NCBI RefSeq assembly: GCF_032854445.1
Contig: NC_088295.1
Coordinates: 63,781,249-63,845,248 of the forward strand
DNA length: 64,000 bases
Direction: 5' to 3'
Source of the DNA: Liolophura sinensis
Taxonomy: Eukaryota; Mollusca; Polyplacophora; Chitonida; Chitonidae
Position 1 is the stretch's first letter; each line of letters begins with the position of its first letter. Shown here in pieces: positions 3,928-57,700 of this stretch. Below the pieces are notes generated by a model. That model was not told the DNA's origin. It saw nothing but the letters and a program-made list of their open reading frames with translations, and ran no database searches. The translations under genes and the position numbers were made by a program.

Positions 3928-3931
<4 letters not shown>
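3806..3931. repeat. Perfect 126-bp palindrome
   Basis: Two 63-bp arms with no spacer. The left arm starts ATGGATTCTAGCTTTCGC and runs to the alternating TA centre at 3868/3869. The right arm is its exact reverse complement ending GCGAAAGCTAGAATCCAT. It is followed directly by a (TA)n tract. Confidence 0.95.
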
Positions 3932-3995
<64 letters not shown>

Positions 3996-4001
3996 TATAT
4001 C
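3930..4001. repeat. (TA)n microsatellite
   Basis: About 70 bp of alternating TA with one AA interruption, abutting the right arm of the palindrome. Confidence 0.95.
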
Positions 4002-11807: not shown

Positions 11808-11868
<61 letters not shown>

Positions 11869-33595: not shown

Positions 33596-36500
33596 TGTTT
33601 AGTATTTCTCGTTAAGCATAGCAACGAAATCTATTATTGATTACATGTTTAAAATATAATATGAGCAAAACTTTAAGTATGTGATTTTAGGTTTAAAAAA
33701 TTTGAAAAGAGCACCCACATTCCAAAAGATCCCTCAGCCTTTTTTTCATAATGTATGTGGCTGACTTTGGATACTTTTACTCCGACAACATCAGTTACCA
33801 AATATGTTTCGAAATCAAGCCATTCAGAAACGAAATCAAACGCTATGAACAGATTCGCTCGCTTTATGCGACATATTTTTAAAAATGAATTAAACCATCA
33901 TATATTCATGCAACATCTCCATGTTAAACTAAATGATTATGTCAATTGTCTCTGCAGCCATACAGTCTGTTAATTTTGCTGTTTTTATTTTTAATTGCAG
34001 TTAGAGGTTTATCAAAACGTTCAATAGAAGTCGTATAGTTGGAATAATGATCACCTAGCGCAAAATATTAAATGATTTTATTCACGTAAATATAAAAATA
34101 TTGTATTATCGCTTGAACCTTTGGCTGTAAGTAAAATAAAAATTGTTCTCATCCAGCATGAAGTTTTTGGACATTTCAACTTTGAACAGTGTGTGAGTAT
34201 TTTTTTTTCAAGAAACTACCATAAATAGCATGGGATTTTGATCCCATCTGCTGGTAAAGTGGACATTTCTGCCAATGGTTACATGCTATTATATTCAACC
34301 ACAACTTTCCACAAACAATGGAGTTAACGAATTATGTGTGGGGCACTAGGAAAAGAGTTATTTCCACCGTTACCTGAAGGTGTCTGACACAAGTTCCTCC
34401 AAACTACAACCCTTATGGCAACAAAAGAAAGGGTCATTCTAGATGGTTCTCTTTCGATAATGTATATAAATGCTTCAGGTTTTTGTATAGTCCGAAGTCG
34501 TTATTGCAAACAGTGCGTCAGGCGACGTCTCCACGATTCACATAACTAATGTCTTAAGCCCCGTTCAATACTATTAAGGATTCCTTCGCATCTCCTCTGG
34601 TGTCAGAGCACACGAATAACTTTCCAGTGACTGCATCACTCGGGAATTTAAGCCAGTGTTAAGAAGAAACCACGATAATAACGCAGTTAAGGTCAAGCAG
34701 GTTTGGTTTTTATGGTCCATGGGGGATTGTAAGTCTTTGTACCAATTCACAACTTCCTTTACACCTGACAATGGCTCTGGTGTTGAGGACCCTTTATAAC
34801 ACAAAGGTCATTAAGTTACCTGGACGAGTAAACTTCAAACGGTGCTTCGAAAAGCCGAACTCGGTTTGTCGCAAAGGGTTTGCCCAGGAATTAACCTCCA
34901 CATAATCATTTTTATACCAACAATGACATAAACCGCGGATTAGCTGGCTAGAGTGGGTCGTATTTGTATACCTTTGTCCCTTTACTTTGGCGCCCATGAT
35001 CCCGACCCCGCCAAGTACCACTCTCCTATGTCCTGCGTTTTATGACTCTCGGGGAAGGGCCGAGGCTTTTAAAGAGCACAGATGTCCAGATGTTCCGGAC
35101 ACTAAACAACCGGTGACTAATTAGAAAATCTCCCTTGATAATTTGACAATAAACAACTTGTAAAATCATGCGCTCAGCGACTTGCACAATTGAACACTTT
35201 TCACAAATGCTAAAACCATTTGAGGCGTTTTATAAGACTACGGATCTGAATCGCCCTTCTATCAGATCAATTTGTTTAATTAAAAGATTAAAGCAATTCT
35301 GCTGACTTTTCAAGGAAATCAATCGAGGAAAAGCAGCACAATGGAAATATCTAATTCCCCAAACAGAAGAGACTCTGTAGAACCTGCAACACTTTTGTAT
35401 GTGTGTGTGAATTACATGTAATTTTTTCAGAAGTGGTTTATTTTCAAACAACTTTCGGTCTGTTCGTGCATTAGAAATAAATAAGATTCCAGCCAGGGAA
35501 AATTTGTGCAACATCAAAAACTGAGGTATATATTATGTAACGTGAATATCTAGTTTAATTTGCCACGTATATTTTTCTTTAGAAATAATATCGTAACGAA
35601 AAGCTTGATAAGTAATGTTTCATTTACTAAATAAAATAAGACTAAATACTGGTCAGATTGAGTTTCATCCTGGTCATTATTTAATGTAGGCCAATCAAAA
35701 TCAACGCTGCTTTCTGAAGCCGGTTTTTAATTTTGAAGGTATATTTATCAGCCTACATCTATGATGTTACAAAAATTTATACAACTATTAATTGTTTAAA
35801 AGCAATAATAATGATATATAGGCTTGTCCTGTTTTTGAAAACAGCAGTAGTGAAATGGAGGCTATATATTTTCGAAAATGTGTGGTTAGCCAAGATTTTG
35901 ACAAGACAGATGCAGTGTGCAGAGTTGAAGAGAATGTACGTGAACCCACCACATGAATCTAGACAATCTCGACACTTAAAACATTACATATATTGCCATC
36001 AGTACAACGCACCGGTATCATTGGTTCAACGAATTTGCGGTGAATTTACAACAAAGTAATACCTGGAATCGTGTTTCAGCTTTTTACCACACATGTTCAG
36101 CTAACAATCCCATAAGTGCCTCTTCACAATACATCTGACAGTTTACTCTTCAAATGTCTTGAAACAATAGTCTGGTTTTGTTCATTTAAGTTTGATCCAT
36201 TTAAGCCTTGTGAAGATATTGCGTGAAAACGCAGATATACTTTGCACATAAAATTTTCTAAATATTAGGATGTTATTCCGACACCTTGAAAAGCTTACCA
36301 GATACCCATATCATACACCAGTTTTGATTTGACATATATATTTTAAAAATAACGAACTATGATAAAATTTTGAAATTAGAAAAACTCCTTAAAACTCTTG
36401 AAATTAGGAACATAACTGTTCAAAGGGCCTCTTTCAACAGCTGACTGATAAATTAATATTACGGATTATATGATTCCAGCATTCAGTATTAAGAGTGAAG

Positions 36501-42744: not shown

Positions 42745-45700
42745 CTGGGTAAAGAACAAAAGTGACCAGGACACGCTCCAAGCAGCACAGCGGTTTAGGT
42801 TAATAACTTACATGTAATCTCAGGCAATTCCAATTGAAATCAAAATATAAATGTCAGACCGAATACATATGACAACATGCATTATATATGTTCATGGAAA
42901 TAAAAATTCCAATAGATGTATCTATCAGCTTTATAATTTCATTTATCTTTATTCAAAGGCACTATGAAATTTTCACCCAAAGTGGTATACTTAAAAATAC
43001 ATGAAACCTGGCTTTTTTTCCCAACTTTAATAAATATGTCGGCGGTGAGAAAATGGTTAACCAATCGAGAGGAGGTGGCTTATTAAAACAAACAAACTAT
43101 ATGTAGAGTAAAAACAACATTACACTCACCTTGAAACTGAGTGAGAACTTCATGAGTTGGCTTCTCCATCTTGTCCTCTAAGAACTGCATAATCTGAGGA
43201 ACGACTCTGCCCGGTGCGTGGACCATGGTCTGTGTGAAGGTCTGGAATAGGATCGTCACGGTCAGATGAAGGGTCATGGCAGGGTCGTCTTCCCGTTGTA
43301 ACTGTTCAGCTAGTCCCTGACGGTGAGTGAACACCAACTGTCTGCCAAAACCAAACAACATTTATTTGTGACATTAACATGAAGGTATCATAATGGCTTT
43401 CACATATATTAGTGTTATTTCATTTTGTAATAATATGAAAACATTCATATCAATTATTGTACTCAAGAATTTTTCACTTACACAAAAGCAGTCAGGTGAA
43501 AAGGTTAGGGAAATTACAGACATTTTTGCTGGACTTGTTTACCATTTAATAAGCACCCGTGAGAATTACCTTTCTTTTTTTTTATCTGGCTTCTTGAGCA
43601 TAATTCCCAAATATTCACTGCAAAGTGCATCAAATTGAGTGAAAAACTCTTCCAAACTCTGAAATATAGAAAATCAAACATATCAGCAGTTGTCACTTGC
43701 AAAAGAGTAAATATGGATACATGGCTGTACATATTTTATTTATTTATTTGATTGGTGTTTTACGCCGTACTCAAGAATATTTCACATATGTGACGGAGGC
43801 TAGCATTATGGTGGAAGGAATCCAGGTGGCTGTACATAAACAGAAACTCATTGTCATCATAAGCACATACTTGATGCAAGTGTTAGGTGCTCCTAAATCA
43901 GTTACCGTTGATATCTGTGATCAGTGAGGTAAATGACATCTAGTCAACTGAGGACAGCTGACGTCTGTCAGTTAACAAGGTACATGTATATACACTGCAA
44001 TCTTCACCAGTAGGCATTAGAGTTGTTGTAATTGTACCATATTTCAACTCTCTCTATCCTGTTTGCATTCATAAAAATACACTAACTCTTTCAGACTGAA
44101 CAATGAATTTCTGTATCATCTAGGCCCTTATGGGACAGTTATAGTCAACATTGTCGGATCCATACACATTTTAGAATGATCAAAATAATAGAAATTAATA
44201 CTTAGTACTTTCTGCAAATGAAAGCAACTCTTCATCTCTTTAAAGAATAACAATGCCTCAAAACACACACAGAAGGTTTAAGACAGAGTTAAAAAGGCGT
44301 CAAATTCTGTGGTATCCATCTGAATTTATTGCAACCAATAAAGCAATAGTTTGTGTCCACTTCAGGTATCAGTCAAGTGAATAATAGAAATAGAAACTAT
44401 CTGAGATAAAATTCACCAGATTTCTCTTCATTCACACAAGATAATTTTTTCCTTTTTTTTTTTTTGGAAGTAAAAATTCATCCTTCCCAGAAAAACTTTT
44501 GCATGTTTCAAATGGATTTATGGCTGTCACATGCACCTTTTTCGTCTTTTTTTTATTTCACTGTTTGTTTGTAAATGCTGTACTCAAAAATTTTTCACTC
44601 AGGCCTTTACCATGGCTGTGACATTTATGAGTAGTAAGAGTGCTCAGAGGTAAACCACTGACATCTGTCAGGTACCAGACAAACCCTGGGACTTAAATCC
44701 ACAGCTGAACCAGTGAGACATATAGATGAGCGTATTTTCATAAATACTATCCTTAGTTTCATTATACATAAAGAATTGACATTTTTACCAGATACCCAAA
44801 CAGACAGTCATCATGTACATGTAATTCTAATTATTATTTTTTTTAAATTACAACATCCTATTGTTGACTAACTGTTTTGTAAAAAAAACTCAGGCTTGAC
44901 ATACATTGTTACATGTATGTAAAATTGTCGACACACACATATTTTCTATCAAACTCCAAACTAGTATGGATTTACCTGACAGGAGGAAAAAACCATTGCA
45001 TCTATAGTCATTCCTTCAGTACTTCATGTGTCAGCTTGAAAAAAAATACTCTGGCATAGCCACATCAGAGGACCTTCACACAATGATCTACTTTGCTGTT
45101 ACAAAACACTCGGAAATTCACAAAAGAATGTAATTAATGATTCCTTTAGTACCATGTAAACATCTTCCCCCTACAGGAAATTAACACGTGATCTTTTTGT
45201 CGCAAATAAGTCATACCAATTTACGATACAATACCATAATCTCAAGAACTACCAATTTTGGAAGCAAATCAATGGGTACCCTCAGCTGTTTTCTGAGAAA
45301 AGATTACAATGTTCTGTGGTGAATATGATAATATTTGATATCATGAAGAACATGGCAAGAAATTCCTTTAAGTGTTAGCAGGGGCCTTACCATGTGGAGG
45401 AAATCATGCTTAGTACTGTAAATGTAGGGTTGGTTTAATTCTACATGTGATGCTAAACTAACTAACGCTGAACAGGTAACAAAATTCATAGAGATTTTTT
45501 TATGGCCTGACTGATGTACACTGTTGCTATCACAAGTTATATTTACTTCCATGTCCTATATAATCACCAGACTCACCTTTCCTCCCAGTGTGTTATTTAG
45601 TTTGCTCATCATTGCCTGCGGCTTCTCTGGTAATTTACCAATCAGCTTTGAACGAGCCTGAAAAAGAACAAAAGTGATACAATGTCCTGATAAATCAATT

Positions 45701-48700
45701 CTCGATTTCAAATATAAGATTTTAAATTTTATTTAAGGTAATGCTCTTTGAGGATAAATCTAATGGCGTGTGGAGAATAAAAGTCACTGCAGAAATTTAC
45801 AGCACATCAGAATTATTTGCATCAGTTGTAATTCTTCAGCTGGTAAGACTGGCGTATGTGTATTTAGGTACCTCTGTGGTAACATTGGCACATCAATTTC
45901 CTCTTGGATTGGTGTATGTGTGTACTTACCTCTGGGGTAAGAGTGGGGTATGTGTGTACTTACCTCTGGGGTAAGAATGGGGGAATATGTGTGTTTATCT
46001 CAGAGGTAAGATTGGGGTATTTGTGCTTTTACCTCTGCAGGTAAGAATGGGATATTTGTGTATACCTCTGAGGTTAGACTGGTGTATTTACCTCTGCGGT
46101 AAGACTGGTGTATTTACCTCTAGTGTAAGACTCATGTATTTACCTCTGAGGAAAGAGTGGGGTATGGGTGTATTTACCTTTGGGGTAAGATTGGAGTATT
46201 TGTGAATTTGCCTCTGAGGTAAGAATGGGGGAATTTGTGTATTTACCTCTGAGGTAGGATTGGTGTATTTACATCTGGAGTAAGACTGGGGTATTTTGTG
46301 TATTTACCTCTAGGATAAGACTGGTGTATTTACCTCTAGGATAAGACTGGTGTATTTACCTCTAGGATAAGACTGGTGTATTTACCTCTAGGATAAGACT
46401 GGTGTATTTACCTTTGAGGAAAGAGTGGGGTATGTGTGTATTTACCCCTGGGGTAAGATTGGAGAACTTTGTATTTACCTCTGCAAGTAAGAATGGGGTA
46501 TTTGTGTATTTACCTCTGAGGTAAGACTGTTGTATTTACCTCTGGGGTAAGACTGGTGTATTTACCTCTGGGGTAAGATTGGGGTATTTGTGTATTTCCT
46601 CTGAGGTAGGACTGTGTATTTATTTTTTTTTAAAGATTGGGGTAAATGTGTAATTACATGTACGTCTGGCGTATGATTGGGGTATCTGCCTATTTACCTC
46701 CTGAACAAAATTGGCACATTTGTGTATTAACCTCTGGGTTAAGATACGGTATTTGTGTAATTGCCAATAGAATTGTGTATTTTGTAATTGCCTTAGTGGT
46801 AGGATTGTGTATTTGTGTATTTATCTTGAGATAACAAAGTGTGTTACCTCTGGATAAAATTGTGTAATTACCTTTGAGTAAAGAGTTTGTGTGCAATTAC
46901 CTCATGATTGATGGTTTGTTTGTGTCATTACCTCTTTGCCATGACTTATGTATGCATGTAATTACCTCTGGAGTAAGGCTATTCTCATCTGTAACAGACA
47001 GCATGTTGTCTGTGGCCAGGGCACTAAGACCCAGGTTAGTGATGTCAGAGCAAACTGTCCTGAGCAGGTGCTTGATCAGCTGTGACTGTGTATCTTCTGA
47101 AAACAAAGAACTACTAATGAGAGTCTACAGTGTGTGACACACCTTCGTTGGGAAAAAACAAAACAATACAGGAATATGAAATGTGGTATTACAGAAATGT
47201 TGGTGTTTGAAGAATGCACACCATTCCTACCACTCCTCTGCTTTTCAAAGGATGAAATTCCAAAATTTTCTGAGCACATTTTTTTTATTTAATTGGTACC
47301 TAATGCTTCCTCAACTCTATGATTATTTCACTGATATAACAGCAGTCAGTAGGTCCATATCTAGTGCCATTTTAGTTCCAGAAAACATTTGGGTTACACA
47401 AACTAATCAAGGCAAACTAATTAAGACTAAGTAAATTAATAAAAAATATGATGGTTTACCATTAAAAAATTTAGTTTACACACAAATTCCTTTTTTCAGC
47501 ATCATTTTAAGTTGCATTTTATAAAATTTCTTTATCCACAGTCACAAAGTCACCTTTAAATACCTTTGGTATCTGGACCTTCAATTTCACTCCAGATTTG
47601 GCTGTAATCAATTTCATAGATAGAGGAAATCACAGTGCTCGAAGCCTTTGGGAACAACAAACTTTACCTAACAAACTTTCTCACTTCTCACCTATTAATC
47701 AGTTCTTGTAATACAAAGAACTGAGCTTCAGCAAGAAACTGTCATCCTTTTTACCTTGGTAACCCCGAATAATGTATGTTGATTTTAATATCATAGTGTA
47801 CAACACACCGTCTGGATAAATTTTTCTTAAACTACACAATGAAGCCTAAACAGAATTGCAATTCAGCTGTAAATAGATAATAAAACTTTTACCATGAGTC
47901 ACTTTCAGTTTTTGTCAGAAATTCTATTGTTTTCGGGTCTTTTCATCAAAGTGAGATTTAATGGCCAAACGTGTCAGAGGAGCTTATGGCAATGCTGACT
48001 TCTTGGTATAAGTGTACACAGCACTGAAGTATCATACAGCCAGCACTTCAAACATTTAGCATTTAATACCAAACTAAGATGATGGGAAAACAAATGTCAT
48101 CACAATACTTGAAACAATATCTATCACTTATTTTTTCATATCTACTTCAAGTGATGCACCACCTGTTTCAACAAATGCTCGTTTTTTAGTCACAGTTCTT
48201 TCTTCAGAGAAAACAGTGAACCGGCAAAACAACACAACGGATGCTTACCTAAATAAATGCAATGTACAGTTAGGCAACTGACAGAGTGCAATGGATACTG
48301 TAGAGTTGCCTGAGGTCAAGAATTTGATGTATGCAGTGGCTGTTACAATCAAGTGCTATCAATAAGACGCAGCCAAAGTAAGGTTTGTTCGGCAGTCTCT
48401 GAGTAAACTAGATTACGCAACAATGTTGAGGACACTGTTGAGGTGTGTGGATATATCCCATTGAGTAGGCCATCAGCAGATTCAACCAATCACAGAGCTG
48501 GATGGACATCAAGAATTGACCTCGTAAGGGGGTGGAGCCCAAAGGGTTCTCTCCTGAACTCAGTAAAGACATAAAGCCTTTCTAACAAGAATGGACAACT
48601 TTTCGAGTCACAAGTCTGAAAGTATCCCCGTTTTGAGAGGTGTGATGGAGAATTCTTGCGAGACAACTGTCAAATTTGCCAAGGTTGTGGAGGCTTGTCA

Positions 48701-51700
48701 AAATGTGACCTCACATACATGTTCCATAACCCTCGGATGAGAATGAGCTCTGCTCAGATAAAGTATATAAAAACAAAGGACTCACCTGAAAAAAATTTAA
48801 TTCCTTTCTCGAAAAGCCTGGCATTGGTCCACAATCCTGATATTTTCTCCTGAAGCTCCCCATGTGTTTTCTTGCGAGAGGATGTTGTGGCCGCACCTGC
48901 AGACTGGAGGAATATGGACTTGGCCGTTTCCTGATACTGTTTAGAAAGTGGTCTGAAAAGACAAAGCAGGGCAGAAAGCACACATTACATCAATTGTTTC
49001 CCAGAGCCATGTCAGTACCATAGTTGTTCCACACATTGCTACTTTAAGCTTAGCAGGTACAGATGTAAATTGGGTGCGAACGAGATCTGGGCACATGTGA
49101 GGAACCCAATGAGAGCCTTTCATTTCTCTGCTAAGATCATCCCCGTTTCTACAAACAACAGAGCGTGAATGAGGTAACAACCATACATGGCCAGATACTT
49201 AGCAAATACACTGGGTATTTCCCAGTGTCTTGGTGAACACAGAAATATACATATAGCAGATCTTCATCGTAAACATAGGAGTGACTTTCTGTGTTGTTAC
49301 AACTTTCTAAGGAAAATCACATCAAAATAATCCTGCAACATTCCTGAATCAGTTCCCCAAATCTACATTATTTCACTTAAAAGAAACTGACAAAGTGTAA
49401 ATTTTTACGCACATTTTCAAGGGAAGAATGTGCAGTAATCATTTCAGAGTCTGTAAGCTATAATGCTCAAAGTGACCTATGGCAGAAGCAGAGACTAGCA
49501 GACTACAGTACACCAAGGCAAGATTTATTTATCTGATTTGTTATGGATAACAAAATTAGAGTTTTGGGACATTTGTGAAGCACTTTCAGGTGATTTATGA
49601 ATTTGTTAATTTATTTATTTCCATGACTGTTGTTTGCTCCAGAATGAATGAACACAGACAAATGATCTATTTATTTATTTATCTGATTGTTGTTAACTTC
49701 ATACTTGATAAGAATTTTTCACCTGCATGACAGCAGTCTAGTTCATGGGTTCGAGAATCCAGAGAGCTCAACATTTAACTGTTTTCCATAAAACAGTTTA
49801 AAAACTCAAATGTTTATTTATTTATTTATTTGATTGTTGTTCAAACCCATATTCAAGATGGTGTTGTGTACTAGTGCAGCACAATGGCCACGGAACCTCC
49901 CACCAATGTGGTCGCCTTAGTCCAGCTTTTGCTGGTCGTACATGGTACATGGCAAGGTCTGTCAACAACCCACAGATGGTCGCGAGTGTCCACCTGGGAC
50001 CTGCCCAGTTTCCTCCAACCATAATGCTGGCTGCTATCATATAGATGAGCTATTCATGAGTACACCAATGAAATAAATAAATATTCAAGGTTGGGGGGTT
50101 TTCTGCTTGGAGGAAACTGTACTACCCACTGCATGCCACCATTTACTAAATTTCTTTCCTGCTGGTAACGTACAATTAAACTAAAAAAAAATATTGGTGA
50201 AAGGCATGTGATCTACAACAAACTTAGGACTGTACACACTCACACAAGAGCGCCGTCAACTGCTTTTAATCACCAAGGCCCCACAAGCTGAGACTGTAGG
50301 GGAATACATAAGTTTTGGGCTGAGATTTAAACCGCACCTGGCGACTGAAATACAAGCATCTCAACACCCAGGCTTCAATCTGGACCTGTTACAAAGATTT
50401 TCTACAGACATATTATAAGCCTACCTATATAGCTGTCTGGCTATTTCTGTCATGAAGTCTTCTGGACACTCACTGGTGAAGGGCTGCTTCTTCAGCTCCT
50501 CTTCTATCTCCTCCACACGCAGGAACTCCAGTTCTACCCTGGGGAGTCTGTCTGACACAGCGGACGACCCCTCCTCATCACTATCCTCCCGTTCCTGTCT
50601 CTTCCCTCCCTTCTTCTTGGTAGACTTGGTTTTGATCTCCCTCCCCTGGGCTCCACCTCCACTCTTGGTACTCCCACTCCCTGCTGCAGACAAATACAGA
50701 TAGCTCAAGCTCTGAATGATTTAGTCACACAGTCCCAAAAGATCTGTCATAACAGGCCACTCAAATTTAACTTATTATCTCACTGTAATGAAAAAAAGCT
50801 TATCACGTCCACTATTTCAGAAATGTCAATGTTACACGTACATGTACTTAGCAGCCAGAGGAACAACTTAATTTTCAATTACAGCTCAGTATTACGCTGC
50901 ATAGAATCCACCTAATAATGATTTGGAAATCTTTAATTTCGCGTTAAACAAGAATGATTCACTTTAAATATATGACGCTGGTTTAATGCTTTATGGGTGG
51001 GGTACCCAGACAGCCGGACATAAAACCACCAGCATTCACAAGGTACCTGTAAAATCTCTACACATAAACGTAGAGAGGAAACAGAAAGAGCAGATTTGGG
51101 TCACCTGTGACGTCATCATTCAGGGAATGACTGGCTCTAGTGGGAAAAACATCTTAACTAACTGAGCCAGCGAGGCCCCCCAAGATCACCATGACTGGCA
51201 AATATTTATTTATCTATTATTTATCCCACTGAAGAATATTTCACTTATACCACGGCAGTCAGCATTAAGATGGGAGGAAACTGGGCTGGGTAAGCTACAA
51301 CCATCCAAAGATTGCTGGCATACCTTCCACATAAGGCCGGAGAGGAACACAGCATGAGCTAGATTTGATCTCACATCAGTCCCTTTTGTGAGAGGCTCCT
51401 GCGTCATTGTGCTGCCCTGGCACACTAACCACCTCAGCCATGGAGGTTTGAACTTTGGTTTCCAAATTCACGGTCTACTGATAAGGTTGTTTTTGTTGTT
51501 TTGGTTTTTTTTTTATTACAACAAAATGGAGATTAATTTCAAATAAGCAAAGGAACTACTCACATACTATTTATTAACCATAAACATTACTAGCCCATCA
51601 AAGCTAGTATTTGCAACTTTGGGGATGTAATCCTAAATCACACACCTGAACGTCAACTGATTGTGGAACAGTCCTAAACTCCAAACAAAACATCCTCCCA

Positions 51701-54700: not shown

Positions 54701-57700
54701 ACACTATCACTCGTGGTATACCACTGATTAGCCAGACAGTTAACCACAACCCTGAAATCCTTATGGAAAACCCTTTACAAGTAGATCCTCTTACACACGA
54801 CCATCACATTAACACAGAGCAAATATTCCAAAAGTAGGATTTAATTTTTCTTTTTTTTTCATCCAAAAAGAGAATTTGCTCATTCTGATATTTTACAGGT
54901 GCATTTATATGCAAATTCATATATCAAATTTGTACATAAACACAAAATCAGGTTTGTTTCTTGTTCTCAATTCATTTTTTTTCTGTTTTTTCTTCTTCTA
55001 TTTTTTTTGTGATTACCAAGTAATTATACTAATTGCTATGTTAATTAGTTGAGAAAACATTCTCAGTGGAGTGGAGAACACACAGTTAACGGTCTCAAAC
55101 AATGTGACAAAATGTCGCAAAATATACACAAATAAAATTATTGACCAAAACAAGAAAATACTTGCAGAAAATAAAATATAAGCTGAGAGGGCATTCATTT
55201 GCCAGCCAGGCATTCCATGAACTAAAGCAAATTCAAAACTAAAATTGCCTGCAAGGCTTTGAATAGCTTGTTTTGTGTCCCCTGACAGTGGCCCTACAAG
55301 ATGTAAGTAGTGGAGTAATGTACGTTCCTGTATCCCCTGACAGTAGCACTTCCAGACCCAACCAGTGAAGTGCTGCCCATTCTGTATCCCCTAACAGTGA
55401 CCTTACAAGACTTAAGCAGTAAAGTAATGCCCATCCCTGTATCCCCTGACAGTGGCCCTACAAGACATAAGCAGTGAAGTAATGCCCATCCCTGTATCCC
55501 CTGACAGTGGCCCTACAAGATGTAAGCAGTGAAGTAATGCCCATCCCTGTATCCCCTGACAGTGACCCTACAAGACGTAAGCAGTGAAGTAATGCCCATC
55601 CCTGTATCCCCTGACAGTGGCCCTACAAGATGTAAGCAGTGAAGTAATGCCCATCCCTGTATCCCCTGACAGTGGCACTTCCAGACCCACACAGTGAAGT
55701 GTTGCCCGTTCCCATATCTCCTGAAAGTGGAACAACAAGATGTAAATAGTGAAGTACTGCCCATTCCTGTATCCCTTGACAGTGGAACTACAATATGTAA
55801 ATAGTGAAGTAATGCCCACACATACATCCTGACAGTGGCACTTCCAGACGCAAGCAGTGAAGTACTGCCTGTTCCCCTATCCCCTGACAGTGGCCCTACC
55901 TGCTGCCCTCTTCCTCCTCTGCTCCTTCTTATCCTCCCTCCCATCCTCAACCTTAGCACCACCGGCCTGACTGGTCGAGGTGAACAGAGACGGGTTATTC
56001 TTAGCCTCCTGAAGGTATAAAATGATCCTACATGAACACTACATCTTAAAAAATATGATTTGGTTTGATCTTGACTGTTGCTTTATGGCAGAATTAAGAA
56101 ATTTCACCTACCCCATGGCATGAAAGCACAAACCTGTGGATAAACCAATGATCACTGGCAATATAGAGATGAGCTTTTCCATATATGACATACAGATATA
56201 AACTGTCACATGAGCATCATAAACTGTTTATTAGTACAAAGTCTACACAAATGGAGAGAGTTGGAGGGATTCACAAATTCCCTGTGCCAGACTGGAACTG
56301 AAGCACGTCCTGTGTTCTAGTGATTTGAAGACAAGATTTAACCACTTCGCTCAACATTCCGCTTGGAATAATAAGACCAATGCTCAAAATTACATGATAT
56401 GAAAAATCTTGAATTAAAAATTCCTTATAGCTGTAAATCTTTCCAATCTGATATGTAACAAATTATAAATTATGTTGAAACAACACCAAACCAAACGTAT
56501 ATCAGCATCGATCAAGTATTCCACATGAACTTCAAAAAGCACACCTTTTATTTTGCTGCAGTTGCATACCCAAGACATCGTAGTTCAAAGTAAGCAAAAT
56601 CACACACATTGAGAAAATCAAAAGTGCTGCAATACCATTGATTTTGATCAATAACTTACATCCCCAGTTTGCCTTTTAACCATGATATTGAAGTAAGAGT
56701 GATCCGACATCCTGTTTCTGCTTGATCTAACATGGCACATTGCCTGGCATTGTAAAATTCCAGATTAAAACTTTATTTCTAGAGTTACATGTACACAGCC
56801 CATCATAAAAAGATCTTATTTAAATATTATTTCTCACCTTGTCAGCTTTCTTGTTGATGAGATGGGTAAATGACTTGCTACACTCCGTGATGAATTTGTT
56901 ACTAGCAGCTATGGTATCACAGAATAACACAGCATCTGGGTGTTTCTTGAGGCAGCCAGTCAGCAGTATCGAGGCATCTTCTGTTGAAAACACCGACGGT
57001 AACAGGGGCTGAAAATGCAAGGGGTCAATTTGTATACACTGACTAATTGACTGATGATACACTACACTATATTATGAAATCATCACAATTATTAGTATTA
57101 AATTATTTATCAGATTGTTGTTTATTGTCACATTCAAGATGTTTCATTGGTGGCTAAACTGAAGTACTCAGCCGCATGATTTCTTCTATCCATAAATCTA
57201 ATTAAATATGTGAAAGTTTCTTGAGTGCAGCTTTAACACCTGATCAAATAAATAAATCATTTCTATTGACAAATTTCTCAAAACTAAGTCCTATCAAATG
57301 AATCACAAAACATGTCATACACATTTAAACATGAACTCAACCTAAAATTTCTACTCTGGGTCTGAGTGGCCAAATGATTAGCATTCTAGCACAGCAAAAT
57401 GGTCCAGAAGCCTCTTGCCAATTTGACTGCGTTGAGTCCAGCACATTCCTATCCAGCCACATGTGGGAAGGTCTGTCAGTAATCTGCAGACTGTCATGGG
57501 TTTCCTCTGCACTCTGCTTGGTTTCCTCCCACCATGATGCTGGCCACCCTTGTATAAGTAAAATACTGTTGAGTGCAGGGTAAAACTCCTATCAAATCAA
57601 ATAAATTGATCAGCTTTACACTCAGTACTAAGTTTTCTAGGATAACGTGGCCATGCTCTTACCATGATATCAATCCATAATCCCTGCGACAGTGACTCCT

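Follow-up and report, generated by a model that had tools for sequence, protein, structure and literature searches.

A minisatellite that repeats a 5' splice site in UFL1 of the chiton Liolophura sinensis, with similar arrays in other genes

It has long been asked how the spliceosome distinguishes a true splice donor from convincing decoys, and certain loci in the genome of the chiton Liolophura sinensis offer natural tests of it. The locus considered here lies in a stretch of 64,000 nucleotides (contig NC_088295.1, positions 63,781,249 to 63,845,248; hereafter the window, to which coordinates refer unless stated otherwise). A partial protein of 576 residues, joined from the translations of 12 exons, matches human UFL1 with an E value of 1e-176, identifying the locus as UFL1 of L. 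sinensis; the gene model is partial, with 12 exons mapped. One of these exons is followed by an intron that carries dozens of sequences resembling the end of that exon and its donor. Where these copies came from, and how splicing might proceed among them, are the questions that the locus raises. The relevant features are as follows, a slash marking the exon-intron boundary here and below.

46966..47096, minus strand: UFL1 exon ending ...DENSLTPE, the apparent source of the array; aligned with human UFL1 (8ohd, 8qfc) without a gap where it joins the following exon, E 2e-14
46956..46977, minus strand: exon-side unit, comprising the final 12 nucleotides of the exon and the true donor GAG/GTAATTAC, +1 at 46965; 19/22 identity to array units, 26 copies at 15/22 or better
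46897..46899, minus strand: first in-frame stop, TAA, when the reading frame of the exon is continued into the intron
45862..46955, minus strand: minisatellite of 36 further units, spaced mostly by 26 or 33-35 bp, G/GT being present in 26
46298..46397, minus strand: four units with identical 22-nucleotide cores, probably the youngest part of the array (Tandem Repeats Finder (TRF), 95% matches)
45577..45657, minus strand: next UFL1 exon, ending ...GGK, on the acceptor side of the intron that holds the array, placed by alignment to human UFL1

Counted with the junction, the array comprises 37 units that run along the minus strand from 46977 to approximately 45862, the first of them being the exon end and donor themselves, CTTACTCCAGAG/GTAATTAC. 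This count is generous, as units differing from the consensus at as many as 10 of 22 positions were accepted; 23 of the 37 units have 4 mismatches or fewer. During compilation of the unit list, a candidate at 46502 was dropped and two others were shifted by 1 nucleotide. A preliminary description of the window, made from its letters alone, had reported a minisatellite with a 26-bp unit at 45860-46985, in which the exon end and donor formed the exon-side unit. The array and the place of the junction within it, in register with the other units, are borne out; a single unit length is not, since spacings of 26 and 33-35 bp are mixed with a few others. That description had also proposed that the units become younger away from the exon and that the array is still expanding or being homogenised there. 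The exon-adjacent units are indeed diverged and the cores at 46397-46319 are identical; however, units at the far edge (45912 and 45883) are diverged as well. The age pattern thus fits homogenisation in the middle of the array rather than a one-way gradient, and for continuing expansion the evidence consists of the four adjacent identical cores. Repeats of this kind were named mirages in amphioxus, where units at the edges are reported to escape homogenisation (PMC3087553); with its identical central cores and two diverged edges, the UFL1 array matches the pattern of the amphioxus globin mirages.

Is the likeness between junction and array better than chance? The junction differs from CTTACCYCAGAG/GTAAATACAC at 3 positions, and the best site outside the array in the 64-kb window at 7. 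When 125,724 22-mers from outside the array were scored against it, six reached 19/22 at some array site, four of them being the junction itself shifted by 0-3 nucleotides and the other two lying at 36300 on the plus strand, with 6-8 copies at 15/22 or better. At that same threshold the junction has 26 copies in the array and the junction shifted by one base 27, compared with 15 for the best unrelated 22-mer; a 22-mer just past the far end of the array has 17. Among 117 donor-like 22-mers matched for register, the junction comes first, with a score of 19 and 26 copies, and the runner-up has a score of 15 and 3 copies. Lastly, the preliminary description had named in advance, as a result that would overturn it, a computed alignment in which the junction match was no better than chance. 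In an alignment where query and target do not overlap, the junction scores 21, and the best of 100 shuffles 14. Across the mapped gene, two of 12 UFL1 donors (the array junction at 46966 and a donor at 55900) exceed all 100 shuffles, and none of 11 acceptors does so, one of these (59834) having been placed at the wrong AG.

The direction of copying can be read from the protein. Across the junction, chiton SLTPE/ARSKL aligns with human AITSE/IRKKI, the T and E of SLTPE being identical, and because human UFL1 aligns without a gap over this junction, the exon end is judged to be the older sequence and the array its copy. Additionally, a search of the 609-Mb genome with the array unit, allowing two mismatches, returned 19 forward matches, all of them inside the array, with none on the reverse strand and none for a reversed control; no dispersed copies were found in this search, which skips very common words. 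Taken with the register of the match and with the similar anatomy seen in other genes (below), these observations make an origin by duplication across the UFL1 exon-intron junction well supported. The slippage that had been proposed as the means of duplication would be one way of producing it.

G/GT is kept in 26 of the 36 downstream units and lost in 10, in agreement with the more than 20 decoy donors first described. Predicted pairing with the 5' end of U1 amounts to -6.7 kcal/mol for the true donor and to between -6.5 and -6.9 kcal/mol for 21 of the 26 decoys (14 at -6.9); three of the remainder pair more weakly, and two distal ones are predicted to pair far more strongly.

45956..45966, minus strand: near-consensus decoy GAG/GTAAGTAC, +1 at 45963; U1 pairing -12.1 kcal/mol compared with -6.7 for the true donor
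45922..45932, minus strand: second near-consensus decoy GAG/GTAAGTAC, +1 at 45929; U1 pairing -12.1 kcal/mol

Only two decoys lie upstream of the TAA at 46899, adding 34 and 65 nucleotides, and none of the 26 therefore keeps the frame; all are predicted to break it or to carry a stop. Judged by sequence, it is plausible that the array units could act as competing donors in UFL1 splicing. The donor-like GGGTAAGA noted earlier on the plus strand is present; however, it is antisense to UFL1.

UFL1 is not alone in having such an array. A survey of contig C1 considered arrays with three close copies of AGGTAAGT (15 arrays) or CAGGTGAGT (14), grouped by eye among the matches listed, and was directed mainly at donors. 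Of the 15 AGGTAAGT arrays, 13 could be followed to their 5' end, and of these three begin with an exon recognized by homology (E values in brackets: L003, GH31, 3.5e-13; L012, GCNT-like, 1.4e-6; L014, POLR3A, 3e-9), one with weak homology (L005, DERA-like, 0.0023, two other scans giving none), two with an open frame only (L006, for which no significant match was found in PDB or Pfam, and L007), and seven with no exon. The 14 CAGGTGAGT arrays comprise three with a confirmed exon (L033, CIAO3-like, 3e-13; L039, BTAF1, 1.8e-18; L037, SUPT3H, 3e-7), one with a weak fucosidase match under the Pfam cut-off (L032, 5.5e-4), four with nothing beyond an open frame (L031, L034 and the duplicated pair L038 and L044), and six with none. 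The members of that pair (C1:49.74 and 49.78 Mb) are near-identical, lie about 38 kb apart in opposite orientation, and share an exon-like end and array. The library entries behind the gene calls were SPT3, RNA polymerase III RPC1, GH31, Branch, Fe-hydrogenase C domain, 'helicase-like protein', fucosidase, deoC and YjeF_N; in the gene names used here, Branch is taken as GCNT, Fe-hydrogenase C domain as CIAO3, helicase-like as Mot1/BTAF1 and YjeF_N as NAXE.

Of the eight arrays with homology, seven include 21 to 42 exon nucleotides in the repeat, L032 having just 3; across UFL1 and the arrays whose protein match reaches the last or last-but-one exon residue, the range is 12 to 42. The match extends to the last exon residue for POLR3A (..DKYMRAKIEPG), BTAF1 (..CDLSPLQ), SUPT3H (..YETVAQ), CIAO3-like (..EVMACPSG) and GH31 (..YYSIPG), indicating that those exon ends are ancient; it reaches the last-but-one residue for a further POLR3A exon (..DLPNVMIK) and stops 13 residues short of the end of the GCNT-like exon.

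The BTAF1 region (C1:4155001-4205000, L061-L065, 50 kb) has 20 arrays found by TRF and 54.6% of its length in tandem repeat; several of its introns look filled with array almost from donor to acceptor. Six arrays there begin with a unit that is the end of a BTAF1 exon, including the array that drew attention to the gene. In each of the six, none of 100 shuffles reaches the junction score, and when the 30 exon nucleotides are taken alone, none of 200 shuffles reaches five of the arrays and four of 200 reach one (..DLQ). Support for these exons from the Mot1 structure 6g7e is strong for ..MPLE and ..SPLQ, moderate to weak for ..CERA and ..DLQ, and hardly any for ..TQIQTK, while the name of the ..TALR exon was assigned by eye. 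No array signal is seen at three other BTAF1 donors. The POLR3A region (50 kb) has eight TRF arrays, among them a second donor array that starts from the ..DLPNVMIK exon and is followed by a further piece.

Predicted U1 pairing varies among these genes. The true POLR3A donor pairs at -8.3 kcal/mol, and 12 of its 36 decoys are stronger by more than 0.5; at GH31, six of eight decoys exceed the true donor by that margin, and at five other exons examined no decoy does so. The GH31 array (+1 at 1663 of L003, 0-based) has 39-nucleotide units, the distance to each of its eight counted decoys downstream is divisible by 3, and the frame reads open through seven further units, making it a candidate source of isoforms like those of human IFI6, whose repeat unit is 12 bp, with possible variants in protein length. 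IFI6 (6-16, G1P3) reportedly contains a minisatellite with multiple splice donor sites, a description attributed to Turri et al. 1995. Overall, at the chiton loci a true donor is accompanied by 7 to 36 counted near-copies of its own exon end and donor (26 in UFL1), some of them predicted to be stronger and differing mainly in position.

UFL1 itself contains a second array, downstream of another exon.

55900..56008, minus strand: UFL1 exon EAKNNPS...RRKRAA(G), from its protein match to UFL1
55274..55899, minus strand: second array, 55-bp unit (TRF), starting exactly at +1 of the donor CAG/GTAGGG

This array repeats positions +1 to +27 of its donor at 26/27, which exceeds 100 of 100 shuffles, and no other copy of it was found in the genome search. 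U1 pairing in its 11 further units is predicted to be no better than -5.3, compared with -11.2 for the true donor, and these copies are poor donors by that measure.

Considering all of the above, it is probable that the UFL1 array is a mirage seeded by tandem duplication over the 5' exon-intron junction, whose exon-side copy stays the donor and is the first donor used, by exon definition. A tandem duplication over the boundary would have made the first copies. The copy next to the exon would remain the working donor, fixed by selection on the protein, and the downstream copies, having become intronic, could then increase in number, mutate and undergo homogenisation through slippage or unequal exchange. 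Exon definition would link the first donor with the body of the exon and with its acceptor, U1 would bind the decoys at most transiently, and any products of decoy use, being frame-shifted or stop-bearing, would be cleared by nonsense-mediated decay. Several observations weigh against this account. The exon part of the UFL1 unit is just 12 nucleotides, mismatches exceed 4 in 14 of the 37 counted units, some of which may have been assigned by chance, and the second array in the gene holds intron sequence only, with no exon copied. The decoys at 45963 and 45929 are far stronger than the true donor and nearer the 3' splice site, and a simple proximity rule would favour donors so placed. Finally, a looser alignment test gave no separation, the junction scoring 18 where shuffles reached 19.5 at most (median 10); this test permits query and target to share positions from +12 to +30, which sets a floor of 18 and makes L028 and L041 self matches, an overlap that the non-overlapping tests avoid.

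Other explanations can be set against the same evidence. If the array were a random intronic minisatellite, its likeness to the junction would reflect chance or the general donor consensus; tandem arrays are abundant in this genome (2.3%, 7.4% and 54.6% of three stretches, the last being that of BTAF1), and the looser test fails to tell the UFL1 junction from shuffles. Yet the ranks of the junction among all 22-mers and among the 117 donor-like 22-mers, along with the 0 of 100 shuffles that reach it, contradict this explanation, and exon bases themselves are copied, here as at other genes, making it highly improbable. Least credible is a transposon or introner that carried splice signals at its ends, inserted and was then amplified. 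A near-palindrome and a donor do occur in many units; nonetheless, neither UFL1 array was found elsewhere in the genome, units in other genes resemble their own local exon, and a transposon origin was rejected because only the array's own locus was matched by the search, within its treatment of very common words.

Roles for the copies, as distinct from their origin, have also been considered. The TTACC...GGTAA pairing raised in the preliminary description might form hairpins that mask decoys or make the intron loop out, and all seven core pairs are present in two of the 37 units, with six in 14 more (junction included). However, a 351-nucleotide stretch folds only slightly better than its shuffles (z -1.75, 5 of 100 as stable or more), and the youngest units have two wobbles and one mismatch. 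On account of this weak excess and imperfect pairing, a hairpin function was rejected, and an RNA-structural role has very little chance of being correct. A functional decoy array, whose copies titrate U1 or shift splicing, either to give regulated, low-output UFL1 transcripts or through in-frame copies as in IFI6, is unlikely, if less remote. The 21 G/GT units within 0.2 kcal/mol of the true donor, the in-frame spacing at GH31, and the use of two downstream repeat units as donors reported for human IFI6 (PMC4526556), speak for it. Conversely, no UFL1 decoy is in frame, 10 of 36 units have lost G/GT, the copies in the second UFL1 array are much weaker, and amphioxus mirages are reported not to disturb splicing (PMC3087553).

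Whether donors are places where such arrays arise preferentially is a broader question. In the UFL1, BTAF1 and POLR3A stretches, seven of 27 arrays start at a donor (three lead-in arrays excluded, split pieces counted once), where uniform placement would be expected to yield about one to three, according to what intron length is taken. Among 13 exon starts in the BTAF1 and POLR3A stretches, none exceeds all shuffles in its exon part and one ties the maximum, and one BTAF1 acceptor has its intron side repeated, not its exon; this contrast between donors and acceptors is not clean, the donors having been chosen partly for their arrays. Three copies of an acceptor motif, TTTTGCAG, gave 154 matches compared with 85 for the reversed control, and one of 11 acceptor-motif arrays inspected (L053, C2:25315800-25317500) ends in a unit that includes the acceptor and the first bases of the exon. 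This 45-bp array in a YjeF_N gene (NAXE-like, E 3.5e-5) is, judged by its anatomy, a mirage at a 3' splice site. L054 is ambiguous, and L050 has an exon-like frame about 90 nucleotides away, with no Pfam match.

The genome-wide motif counts are less telling. Triple AGGTAAGT has 550 matches versus 389 for its reversed control (single motif, 26,582 versus 29,090), and triple CAGGTGAGT 628 versus 15 (single motif, 10,097 versus 2,731). Grouped by eye among the matches listed, AGGTAAGT and control arrays number 15 each, an equality that also favours the random-minisatellite explanation, and about half of the arrays with AGGTAAGT or CAGGTGAGT show no exon. Owing to the equal array numbers for the former motif and the commoner single motif for the latter, motif-based enrichment of donor arrays was discarded as proof of a hot spot. 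The 15 control-motif arrays had no significant exon at an edge, according to lists of open reading frames (ORFs) and to Pfam on 10 ORFs, with the edges of L017 lying outside its locus; since Pfam misses short exons, that of POLR3A included, this comparison is a weak one. Close to one control array (L028) there is an exon-like frame that matches ECH_2 weakly (E 0.039; 0.14), its junction not being copied. Altogether, the evidence for donors as hot spots of array birth is suggestive. The wider proposal, that minisatellites arise preferentially at chiton 5' splice sites, with introns growing by serial copies of exon ends and the spliceosome still choosing the first donor in a row of dozens that equal or surpass it, is tentative and attracts more doubt than belief. 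If true, it would provide both a route of intron growth and a genome-scale natural assay of donor choice.

Elsewhere in the window, a GAT/GAC-rich tandem repeat at 880-947 is possibly an Asp-rich coding stretch, open frames at about 49825-50050 and 57340-57600 (..HHGGRKPS..) are alike, suggesting a dispersed repeat, and long, near-perfect AT microsatellites lie at 3930-4000 and 11811-11865.

As to precedent, no report of mirages in molluscs or chitons was found among the top-ranked literature titles, in a search outside which most subscription journals lie, and the main text of a paper on chiton genomes (PMC12005716) contains neither 'introns' nor 'satellite'. The kind of structure is already described, though seldom reported; as far as seen, what appears new is the animal group and the frequency of recurrence. 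The arrays bear on intron growth and extend mirages from amphioxus to a mollusc, in several genes, and gene annotation in array-rich genomes may misplace exon ends.

Comparison with other systems helps to place the UFL1 array. The human IFI6 array likewise sits at an exon end with units that are donors; unlike in UFL1, where all decoys are frame-breaking by sequence, downstream IFI6 units are used, giving isoforms (PMC4526556). In human segmental duplications, boundary tandem repeats alter gene structure as in UFL1, although PMC2812944 describes new introns arising from exonic repeats, as opposed to the enlargement of an existing intron. CeRep25B of Caenorhabditis elegans resembles the UFL1 array as a near-palindromic intronic minisatellite possibly linked to splicing; in contrast, it is a family at many loci that does not derive from a local exon (PMC4039745). 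The closest counterparts are the amphioxus mirages of Adh3 and the globins BflGb6 and BflGb9, to which PMC3902484 adds PGBD5 and for which it cites troponin C (TnC). Like them, the UFL1 array has the structural features of a mirage: a unit that spans the boundary, partial retention of AG/GT (kept by many, not all, amphioxus units), edges that have not been homogenised, and unit lengths (26 and 33-35 bp) within the amphioxus range of 10-160 bp (PMC3087553). The differences are that amphioxus is a cephalochordate and the chiton a mollusc; that 5' and 3' boundaries are both affected in amphioxus, whereas the chiton cases, from a donor-focused search, are mostly 5' splice sites; and that length polymorphism and reverse transcription PCR results are known for amphioxus, the chiton arrays being known from the sequence of one assembly.
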